Source of the DNA: Candidatus Mediterraneibacter stercoripullorum
GTDB lineage: Bacteria; Bacillota; Clostridia; Lachnospirales; Lachnospiraceae
Direction of reading: 5' to 3'
Assembly (NCBI GenBank): GCA_019115765.1
Contig: DXCZ01000105.1
Location: 62,001-126,000, forward strand
Length of the DNA: 64,000 nt
The translations under genes were made by a program, and so were the position numbers. Below the pieces are notes generated by a model. That model was given only the letters and a program-made list of their open reading frames with translations. It was not told where the DNA came from and did not search any database. This document shows, piece after piece, positions 23,402 to 58,247 of this stretch. Every line of letters starts with the position of its first letter. Position 1 is the first letter of the stretch.

Positions 23402-25324
23402 TCATACGTCAAGCTCTGCTTCTCTTGCATTTTCATAGATAAATGCCCTTCTCGGCGGGACTTCCGTGCCCATCAGCATCTCCGTCACACCGGAAGCCAT
23501 CCTGGCATCTTCGATCTCCACCAGCTTAAGAAGCCGCCGCTCGGGATCCAGAGTCGTCTCCCAGAGCTGTTCCGCATCCATCTCCCCCAGACCCTTATAG
23601 CGCTGAAGTGTAAATGGGCTTTTATGAGTCTTCCGGTATGCCTCCAGAGCCTTGTCATCGTACAGATATTCCTCCTCGCCGTTCTTCGGCATGGCCTTGT
23701 ACAGAGGCGGCATGGCAATGTAGACATGTCCCTCGTAGATCAGCTCCGGCATGAACCGGTAGAACAGCGTCAGCAGCAATGTAGAGATATGCGCTCCATC
23801 CACGTCCGCATCGGCCATTATGATGATCTTGTCATAGCGCAGCTTGCTGATATCAAAGTCGTTGCCGTATCCCTCGGAAAAACCGCAGCCGAAGGCATTG
23901 ATCATAGTCTTGATCTCCGCATTGGCCAGGATCTTGTCAATACTCGCCTTCTCCACGTTCAGGATCTTTCCGCGGATGGGCAGGATTGCCTGGTAGTTCC
24001 GGTTTCTGGCCGTCTTTGCTGAGCCGCCGGCGGAGTCTCCCTCCACGATGAATATCTCGCATTTCTTTGGATCTCTGCTTTCGCAGTTGGCCAGCTTGCC
24101 GTTACTGTCGAAGGAGTACTTCTGTTTCGTGAGCAGGTTTGTCTTCGCCTTCTCCTCTGTCTTCCGGATCTTGGCCGCCTTCTCCGCGCTGGAGAGCACC
24201 GTCTTCAGAGTATCCAGATTCCGGTCAAAATAACGGACTATTTCCTCTCCCGTCACTTTTCCCACTGCCTTGGAGGCGTCCGGGTTGTCCAGCTTTGTCT
24301 TGGTCTGTCCCTCAAACCGCGGATCCGGATGCTTGATGGAAATAATGGCAGTCATGCCGTTCCGGATGTCCGCTCCTGTGAAGTTGGCATCCTTCTCCTT
24401 CAGGATCCCCAGTTCTCTGGCGTACTGGTTCATCACCGTAGTAAATGTAGTCTTAAAGCCAGTCAGATGGGTGCCGCCCTCCGCATTATATATATTGTTG
24501 CAGAAGCCCAGCACATTCTCATGAAATTCATTTACATACTGAAATGCCGCTTCCACCTCTATGCCATCGGATTCTCCCTTAAAATACACCGGCTCGTGGA
24601 GAACTTCTTTCTTCTTGTTCAGGTCACGGATAAAGCCGATAATGCCTTCCGGTTCATGGTACTCGATATGCTCCGGGGATTCCGGTCTCTTATCGTCAAA
24701 AATAATTGTAAGATCCGGGTTCAGATAGGCCGTCTCATGAAGTCTGCTCTTGACCTCCTCTGCCCGGAACCGTGTTTTCTCGAAAATGGTATCGTCAGGA
24801 AGGAAATTCACCGTTGTTCCTGTCTTCCTTGTCTTCCCGATCTTCGGCAGAAGCCCGTTCTCCAGCTCGATCACCGGAACTCCCTTCTCATAACGGTCAT
24901 GGTGAATGTATCCGTCCCGGCTGATCTTCACATCCATATAAGTAGAAAGTGCGTTCACGACAGAGGAACCGACTCCGTGGAGACCGCCGCTGGTCTTATA
25001 CGCAGAATCATCAAACTTTCCTCCCGCGTGAAGGGTGGTGAATACCAGTCTGGCCGCTGAAACGCCTTTTTGGTGCATGTCCACCGGGATTCCTCTTCCG
25101 TTATCAGAAACTGTAGCGGAACCATCCTTTTCCAGTGTGACATGGATCTCCGTGCAGTAACCGGCCAGATGCTCGTCCACGGAGTTGTCCACGATCTCGT
25201 AGATCAGATGGTTCAGTCCTTTTGTAGAGACACTGCCGATATACATACCGGGCCGTTTCCGGACTGCCTCCAGTCCCTCCAGTACAGCGATGCTCCCGGC
25301 ATCATATGTATTTTTTTCTGCCAT
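23402..25324 (-). CDS. Type IIA DNA topoisomerase subunit B (GyrB/ParE family)
   Basis: EGLEAVRKRPGMYIGS, EGDSAGGSAK, ADADVDGAHI. Confidence 0.95.
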   Translation of the reverse strand: MAEKNTYDAGSIAVLEGLEAVRKRPGMYIGSVSTKGLNHLIYEIVDNSVDEHLAGYCTEIHVTLEKDGSATVSDNGRGIPVDMHQKGVSAARLVFTTLHAGGKFDDSAYKTSGGLHGVGSSVVNALSTYMDVKISRDGYIHHDRYEKGVPVIELENGLLPKIGKTRKTGTTVNFLPDDTIFEKTRFRAEEVKSRLHETAYLNPDLTIIFDDKRPESPEHIEYHEPEGIIGFIRDLNKKKEVLHEPVYFKGESDGIEVEAAFQYVNEFHENVLGFCNNIYNAEGGTHLTGFKTTFTTVMNQYARELGILKEKDANFTGADIRNGMTAIISIKHPDPRFEGQTKTKLDNPDASKAVGKVTGEEIVRYFDRNLDTLKTVLSSAEKAAKIRKTEEKAKTNLLTKQKYSFDSNGKLANCESRDPKKCEIFIVEGDSAGGSAKTARNRNYQAILPIRGKILNVEKASIDKILANAEIKTMINAFGCGFSEGYGNDFDISKLRYDKIIIMADADVDGAHISTLLLTLFYRFMPELIYEGHVYIAMPPLYKAMPKNGEEEYLYDDKALEAYRKTHKSPFTLQRYKGLGEMDAEQLWETTLDPERRLLKLVEIEDARMASGVTEMLMGTEVPPRRAFIYENAREAELDV

Positions 25325-25455
25325 TTACATTCTCCCTTTCAGTCTGCGGACAGGCCTTGCGGCACGCCCGCAGATACTATTTCGTCCTCTATCCTGCGCT
25401 GGCGCAGAACAATCCAGTAAATACTATATCACCAGTCTTTGGGATTTTCAATGGA

Positions 25456-25692
25456 GTTTTTGGTCTCGGGTTGTAACAGTTCAGCCATCTGATATCAGGA
25501 GACGGATTTATGCTCGCATAAAAATCCGGCGACTGATATTCAGATGAGCTGAGCGCCCGTCAATGAGTAAAACAGCGGCGACTGCCGCAACAAGCACGAA
25601 GTGCGGTTTTACGAATGGCGCGGGCTGAACTGTTACCTCGGGTTTCCGCCATACCGGACCGGTATGGCTGGGGTATCGAGACGCGCATGAAC
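25456..25692 (-). repeat. Repeat family B, core-less mini copy interrupted by the MITE-like element
   Basis: GTCTCG...GCCATACCGG A CCGGTATGGC...CGAGAC...TGAAC; same right flank layout as 58194-58239. Confidence 0.65.
25465..25644. mobile_element. MITE-like element A (164 bp, 25473-25636) flanked by 8-bp direct repeats
   Basis: TIR GTAACAGTTCAGCC (25473-25486) / GGCTGAACTGTTAC (25623-25636); CTCGGGTT at 25465-25472 and 25637-25644. Confidence 0.75.
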
Positions 25693-25709
25693 AAGTAGTA
25701 CTTTTTCGG

Positions 25710-26915
25710 TTATTCTCCTCCGAGGAGGACTGTATATAATGTATCAGAGAGTACTTCCATGGCGTTCATCATCTCTTCAACAGTATTTGTTTGGGCGCCG
25801 GCTTCTACAAGCAGGGACTTGGGGAGGAGATGCAGGTTATAGCGGTAGGCTCTCAGGTAAATGTGTCTGGTAAAGCCGGGGAATCTTGCTTCGGAAGCGA
25901 GCTGCATCTGAAGGGAGAAGGCGAGATTATCCTGGATGTAGGGATTGTAGAGGTATTCAATATCTCCGTTGGTCCTGGAGCGGCTCAATCCGTTGAAATA
26001 CATGATCTTGGCGGTAGGTTTCCCGTTGATCTCTGTTACCAGATGAGTCCCCGACGCCACTCCGTCCCGATGAAGGTCGATGGCAACTTCTATGGTCGGA
26101 TTCTCCTCCAGTATTTTCTCTACGGCTTCTCCCGCATATTCATAGGCTTTGCTCCTGTCCAGTTTCCCGTTGATCTTGTCATAGACTCCGGTGTCGTGGA
26201 TGGTCTCGATTCCTTTTTCATTCAGCAGCTGAACAAGATATGTACCCACTCCCACAATACTGGTTGCGGGATCCCCCGGCGTTGAATCCGCGAATTCTTC
26301 CTGGGAATGGGTGTGATAAACAAGGACTTTCGGCCCATTTGAAGCAGTATCAATGGTCATATCTTTTCCAAGGAGTTCGTCTGCGTTCAGCTCATCCCTG
26401 TTTATCATAGTAGAACTGTCTACTGTATAAAAATTGCTGAGCAGGTAATCAAAATCTCTCAGTTTTTCGATGGACATATCAATTGTGGAAGATGGACGAA
26501 CTGTCTCCTGATCTTCATCCGCCGGCTCCGATTCATCCGGCTCTCCGATCAGCTCTCCGTTTTCATCTACCGCATTTTCATCGTTTGCCTGACTTTCCAG
26601 TATCCTTGCAATGGTCTCTTCGTCTTCCATAACTGTTTCATTCACACTGTGATCTTCTACATAACTGATGAGAGGAAGCCATGCCAGCACTTTTTCTCTG
26701 ATCCATCCCGCCATATCATCTGATGGTTTCCGGTTCATATATACAAGCCCCGGCATGTACATTTCTTCCGCACTCTGGAATATTCTGTGCTGCAGCTCAT
26801 ATTTCCATTCCCCTGCCGCGCCCTGGAATGCCGTCCAGATCAGCCCTGCCGATGCCAGCATGACGGCTGCCGCAGTTCCTGTACGCTTCAGCCATTTTGT
26901 TCCTGTCCTTTTCAT
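25710..26915 (-). CDS. spoIIP: Stage II sporulation protein P
   Basis: VLVYHTHSQEEFADS...GTYLVQLLNEKGIETIHDTGVYD...LHRDG. Confidence 0.94.
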   Translation of the reverse strand: MKRTGTKWLKRTGTAAAVMLASAGLIWTAFQGAAGEWKYELQHRIFQSAEEMYMPGLVYMNRKPSDDMAGWIREKVLAWLPLISYVEDHSVNETVMEDEETIARILESQANDENAVDENGELIGEPDESEPADEDQETVRPSSTIDMSIEKLRDFDYLLSNFYTVDSSTMINRDELNADELLGKDMTIDTASNGPKVLVYHTHSQEEFADSTPGDPATSIVGVGTYLVQLLNEKGIETIHDTGVYDKINGKLDRSKAYEYAGEAVEKILEENPTIEVAIDLHRDGVASGTHLVTEINGKPTAKIMYFNGLSRSRTNGDIEYLYNPYIQDNLAFSLQMQLASEARFPGFTRHIYLRAYRYNLHLLPKSLLVEAGAQTNTVEEMMNAMEVLSDTLYTVLLGGE

Positions 26916-39040: not shown

Positions 39041-39103
39041 GAAAATTCAGAAAACGGAGGAAAAAAGTGACAGGTACTTTTTTCCTCCGTTTTCTGAATT
39101 TTC
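39041..39103. terminator. Bidirectional terminator, 28-bp perfect stem
   Basis: GAAAATTCAGAAAACGGAGGAAAAAAGT / ACTTTTTTCCTCCGTTTTCTGAATTTTC between convergent genes. Confidence 0.85.
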
Positions 39104-57595: not shown

Positions 57596-57985
57596 TGTGT
57601 CAAGCAAGACGATAAGCCGGGTTATGTCATTGGACAATCATCTGTCTAGGCACGGCGTTACCGCCGTGCTCGAGCGACCTACCTGAAGCGTGACGGGCCG
57701 CCACATTGCTTACGTTTCGGTCTTGCTTCGGATGGGGTTTACATGTGCCCTCTCTGTTACCAGCGAGGCGGTAGTCTCTTACACTGCCTTTCCACCCTTA
57801 CCGCACGGAAATGCGTTCCGGCTGATGCCTTCCCGTTTTCCATTGCGGCGGTTTATTTCTGTTGCACTGGCCTTGGAGTCACCTCCACCGGACGTTATCC
57901 GGCATCCTGCCCTGCGAAGCCCGGACTTTCCTCGTCTGCGGCCTTTCGGCACCTGCAGCCGCGATTGTCTGTCTTACTTGACACA
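57596..57985 (-). ncRNA. rnpB: RNase P RNA, bacterial type A
   Basis: Reverse strand has GAGGAAAGTCCGGGCTTCGCAGGGCAGG, GCAACAGAAATAAACCGCCG, GGTAAGGGTGGAAAGGC, AACCCGGCTTATC; P1 from GTGTCAAGTAAGAC/GTCTTGCTTGACAC. Confidence 0.95.
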
Positions 57986-58053: not shown

Positions 58054-58239
58054 GTTCATTTGTTCTCAGAGTTCCGCCATAACGGAGCTGTGTTGTCCCG
58101 GCGGCCGCGCTTTCGCTCGGAGCATAGCGCAGCGGACACGTAAGGCCGCAAATGACGCGGCCTAAATGCCGGCGCTCTGCTACGGGCCTTCGTGACAACA
58201 CAGCTCCGTTATGGCTGGTATACTGAGACACGTCTGAAC
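58054..58239 (-). repeat. Repeat family B, full copy 2 (186 bp) with 22-bp perfect stem
   Basis: GCCATAACGGAGCTGTGTTGTC (58076-58097) / GACAACACAGCTCCGTTATGGC (58194-58215); reverse strand aligns to 4522-4706. Confidence 0.88.
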
Positions 58240-58247
58240 ATTAACGG

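Follow-up and report, generated by a model that had tools for sequence, protein, structure and literature searches.

A MITE with IS66-type ends and a conserved fold, nested in a core-less palindromic repeat of Mediterraneibacter

In the window analyzed here, a 64,000-nucleotide stretch of a draft genome of Mediterraneibacter (Lachnospiraceae), a 164-bp palindromic segment, referred to as element A, is flanked by spoIIP and a gyrB/parE-type gene and interrupts another palindromic repeat. The genus assignment agrees with the closest named relatives of the SpoIIP protein, which are Mediterraneibacter records. The locus raises three questions: (i) whether element A is a transposed element, (ii) which transposase could have moved it, and (iii) what its strongly folded interior represents. 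The features of the locus are collected in Table 1.

Table 1. Features of the element A locus and of the repeat copy used for comparison
Feature	Position in window	Strand	Evidence or remark
Element A, 164-bp MITE, non-coding	25473..25636	+	TIRs and TSD, further copies, empty site
Left TIR, GTAACAGTTCAGCC	25473..25486	+	Shared with L179, an IS66-family element, and with its relatives
Right TIR, GGCTGAACTGTTAC, equal to GTAACAGTTCAGCC on the - strand	25623..25636	-	Exact
8-bp TSD, copy 1, CTCGGGTT	25465..25472	.	Single copy in sister L085
8-bp TSD, copy 2, CTCGGGTT	25637..25644	.	Exact repeat of copy 1
Interior hairpin 1, loop GCTYGC	25487..25545	+	Stem kept by compensatory changes
Interior hairpin 2, two sub-hairpins and internal loop	25553..25621	+	Alignment; common to RF01699
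Host site, core-less family B palindromic repeat	25462..25692	-	Element A interrupts its outer end
spoIIP, upstream of element A in transcription order	25710..26915	-	Pfam PF07454
gyrB/parE-type topoisomerase subunit gene, downstream of element A	23402..25324	-	Pfam PF00204/PF00986
Full-length family B copy, for comparison	58054..58242	.	Ends matched to those of the host site

An earlier note on this DNA had described perfect 14-bp terminal inverted repeats (TIRs) flanked by 8-bp direct repeats, and had read this layout as a transposed element with a target duplication (TSD). Both pairs of repeats are exact and lie where the note had placed them; beyond the TIR pair, the window contains no exact or one-mismatch copy of the 14-mer, and no ORF of at least 80 aa is contained in element A. 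The reading as a transposed element is backed by an empty site and by the different 8-bp repeats found at other copies. The empty site, for which a search in sister strains had been proposed, was found on the contig CALWLJ010000002.1 (L085), where SpoIIP is 91% identical. This sister lacks element A and carries the target 8-mer once, as AACCCGAG (the reverse complement of CTCGGGTT), within 20 bases that are identical across the target site, CGGAAACCCGAGACCAAAAA; the identity was placed by eye, and automatic global alignment scatters the sister bases over the gap.

The note had also proposed that element A is nested in a family B repeat devoid of its core, and this holds: once joined, the flanks, TTTCCGCCAT / ATACCCCAGCCAT, reproduce both of the asymmetric family B ends, corresponding to GTTCCGCCAT / TATACCAGCCAT in the full-length copy at 58054, and the core-less site has the arms CCGCCATACCGG (25646-25657) and CCGGTATGGCTGG (25659-25671), spaced by one base. 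Family B is found at about 40 places in full length in the same genome, and at least three places, the host site of element A included, have the core-less form, which is a short palindrome with B-type ends. The ends of the family are TGTTCA...TGAACA, and its stems vary between copies yet stay complementary. When 22 copies were tested for duplications at their ends, none of the offsets examined showed direct repeats of at least 5 bp, and thus no mechanism is claimed for family B. The copy at 58054 adjoins the class A RNase P RNA (57597-57980, - strand). Of the B copy, the sister keeps the outer end on the right and lacks the arms, and it has no MITE, which supports the proposed order of nesting. 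We read element A as the younger repeat and the B copy as the older one, of which the sister would have lost a part.

Further copies, which the note had suggested looking for and whose absence would have refuted its reading, are numerous. The same genome has seven more copies or fragments of element A, and matches were found in 47 of the 58 genomes of the genus and in 36 of the 397 genomes sampled across the family. Flanks could be compared for 64 copies: the 8-bp repeats are exact in 16 and agree in at least 7 of 8 positions in 25 (controls, 0/1595). At the ninth base the agreement drops sharply, to 3 of these 25 copies. The note had stated that a single 8-mer common to all copies would assign the repeats to the element; instead, the 25 copies have 24 distinct repeats, and the repeats therefore belong to the target. 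Core-deleted copies that retain little beyond both ends (31-53 bp) were observed in 21 of the 58 genus genomes, in which the reversed end pattern gave zero matches; exact 8-bp repeats flank 3 of the 24 core-deleted copies examined. Six congeners (L237, L240, L242, L245, L246, and L265) have copies with identical flanks, CATTAAAT / AATGCATC, and these represent an old shared insertion.

Element A is short, lacks a transposase gene, has TIRs and a TSD, is dispersed in many copies, and has an empty site; moreover, its ends are common to a candidate autonomous element, described below, and to relatives of the latter. On these sequence features, the designation "MITE-like" of the earlier note can be hardened to MITE, and past mobility is suggested.

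A search of the genus with PF03050 led to a full-length transposon with matching ends, for which the note had suggested searching, and this candidate partner (L179:149-1968, in a congener) is an 1820-bp IS66-family element. Its TIRs match at 21 of 23 bp, a length within the 20-30 bp of IS66 inverted repeats; the left end starts with GTAACAGTTCAGCC, the right end has one mismatch within those 14 bases, and an exact 8-bp duplication, CGAAAAAA, is present on both sides. The single long ORF of 485 aa matches PF03050 with 75.5 bits (cut-off 23.1) and the NCBIfam IS66 model over 103-479 with a score of 145.6, under the cut-off of 180. Many IS66 members have the accessory genes tnpA and tnpB, which are absent from L179; however, TnpC-only IS66 elements are known, so this absence does not exclude it from the family. 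A copy of element A (L179:1-148) directly abuts L179, and CGAAAAAA overlaps the last base of this copy.

The same end sequence accompanies the relatives of this transposase. Exact GTAACAGTTCAGCC ends were found with transposases at 66-83% amino acid identity to that of L179, and in other genera (L195/L210, L198, L201, and L207) exactly GTAACAGTTCAGCC is present at whichever end is on the contig, whereas such ends are absent beside distant, ~30%-identical IS66 proteins. L179 is the only intact IS found with both ends; the other relatives have one end, mostly because of contig breaks. No IS66 transposase was detected in the draft genome that contains the window (89% complete), and therefore present-day mobility there is doubtful; the transposase is also missing from several copy-rich congeners. 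In plasmid and phage collections, the search gave nothing but two partial matches in phage records and IS66 proteins that were all distant. L179 and element A have the terminal repeat in common and not the interior; thus, element A did not arise simply by deletion from L179. We infer that it was moved by the transposase subfamily of L179.

L179 was rejected as the source of the interior, with no similarity above that of shuffled sequences. In the element A fold, which comprises 51 pairs, the TIRs pair to give the terminal stem; inside it are two hairpins, of which the second is branched. Across 60 distinct copies, 97.8% of the pair cells are standard, and changes on both sides, i.e. compensatory ones, occur at 17 of the 51 pairs; the 83 double-change cells compare with a mean of 22.5 in shuffles that ignore relatedness among copies. 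Substitutions amount to 5.2% in stems versus 14.6% at unpaired positions. In an alignment of 17 sequences, the internal loop of the second hairpin, ATGAG (25563-25567) / CGAAT (25612-25616), is invariant and is predicted to form tandem G.A pairs. The interior is a separate two-hairpin sequence with maintained pairing that does not derive from L179.

A search of 25300-25800 against Rfam gave a sole match, to RF01699 (Clostridiales-1), covering model positions 1-166 of 166 with 26.7 bits (E 7.5e-4), under the gathering score of 48. The other copies of element A score 25-39 bits (best, 39.1), all under the same threshold, and the match is weak, since it was not listed at E 0.05 when the whole window was searched with stricter filters and larger E-values. 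Conversely, a model of element A built from 17 copies (R1) finds the RF01699 copies in L351 (E 1.7e-4), L359 (1.2e-3), and, weakly, L355 (0.22), and gave no match to those of the remaining loci searched. It is likely, though short of proof, that the two cores are related, probably distantly. The earlier note had contained neither this resemblance nor the assignment of the transposase to IS66. Elsewhere in the window, a near-perfect hairpin (39041-39103) gave a presumably fortuitous match to a microRNA precursor model and is probably a transcription terminator or a small palindromic repeat.

The RF01699 motif was graded in 2010 as "probably" RNA and not cis-regulatory (PMC2864571). Above cut-off, it was found in 177 of the 397 genomes drawn from the family, the genome analyzed here (L346) among them, and a single genome commonly has several copies; the 14 control genomes have none. 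At the loci inspected (L336-L365), the copies lie inside elements of ~185-210 bp. At 22 of the 28 loci tested, the outer end was recognizable as CCCCAACATC and one further base, or as something close to this, and exact direct repeats are present at ten (5-bp) and four (6-bp) of these 22 loci, compared with controls of 0.27% for 5-bp and 0/2200 for 6-bp repeats. Judged by these end repeats and duplications, RF01699 probably forms the interior of a different MITE; in the literature searched, nothing was found that describes Clostridiales-1 as a mobile element. With more doubt than belief, we raise the possibility that, in Lachnospiraceae, mobile elements of two or more unrelated kinds carry a related two-hairpin core: one kind has IS66-type ends and duplicates 8 bp, and another, listed in Rfam as the Clostridiales-1 sRNA, has TGATG ends and duplicates 5-6 bp. 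If true, the core would be a selfish RNA or DNA structure that is functional and has been swapped between transposon ends.

The Rfam match end to end, the compensatory changes and the invariant internal-loop bases would also suit a structured ncRNA gene related to Clostridiales-1 that is repeated incidentally, its end repeats being a terminal RNA stem; in the same direction, single stem changes read on the + strand are more often G-T (53) than A-C (28). We nevertheless consider this explanation very improbable, given the 8-bp target duplications, the empty site, the mobile core-less copies with ends alone, and the mobile-element hallmarks of RF01699 itself. Element A, moreover, opposes its neighbours in 16 of the 20 copies located between two co-directional genes, some of which are shared old insertions. 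This bias runs against transcription of the + strand, and gene-relative orientation was dropped as evidence for a transcript. The interior is most likely a structured passenger of the element and not a gene serving the host.

Two other scenarios concern the way of spreading. A DDE transposase of a different family that also makes 8-bp duplications could have moved element A, the end match to L179 being convergent or captured; the lack of an IS66 transposase in the same genome would fit, yet the exact 14-base match with L179 and its relatives in several genera, and not with distant IS66 proteins, makes this very improbable. Spread without any transposase, by homologous recombination or by REP-like, hairpin-driven template switching, would agree with the palindromic build and with the many old copies at sites common to several species, such as the six genomes noted above. 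We regard it as extremely improbable, since recombination does not make differing 8-bp target duplications and a clean empty site is likewise not expected from it.

Very probably, therefore, element A is a non-autonomous transposon, a MITE, which an IS66-family transposase recognizing GTAACAGTTCAGCC moved in trans into a core-less B copy. In this mechanism, the DDE transposase would bind the GTAACAGTTCAGCC ends and move the element, transposition would duplicate 8 bp of the target, and the insertion would fall in the outer end of the older B copy in the spoIIP-gyrB/parE-type interval. The donor IS may subsequently have been lost, or it may be missing from the draft genome. As a MITE, element A is ordinary in kind; the case is unusually complete and bears usefully on an Rfam family. 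A widespread gut-bacterial repeat gains a mechanism: its ends are of IS66 type, a candidate transposase can be named, and an empty site exists. Clostridiales-1, a catalogued structured RNA, is probably the interior of a mobile element, in which case its copies and their "conservation" would have to be read differently.

Comparison with known systems places element A as follows. IS66 elements are described as having inverted repeats that start with GTAA and 8-bp duplications (PMC11946415); element A and L179 are alike in both respects, and L179 has the DDE_Tnp_IS66 domain (PF03050), although its repeats start with GTAACAG and not with the more specific GTAAGCG reported in the same source. L179 resembles the single-ORF, TnpC-only type of the family, whereas element A carries no gene. 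No IS66-linked MITE was found for Lachnospiraceae in the literature searched. Other bacterial MITEs, e.g. MITEPsy1 (PMC3189936), are likewise short and non-coding, with TIRs, a target duplication and IS-like ends; element A differs from them in its conserved branched fold. With Clostridiales-1 it shares the two-hairpin plan, the GCTYGC loop, the ATGAG/CGAAT internal loop and the host family, whereas the ends of the latter are TGATG...CATCA and its duplications are 5-6 bp long.
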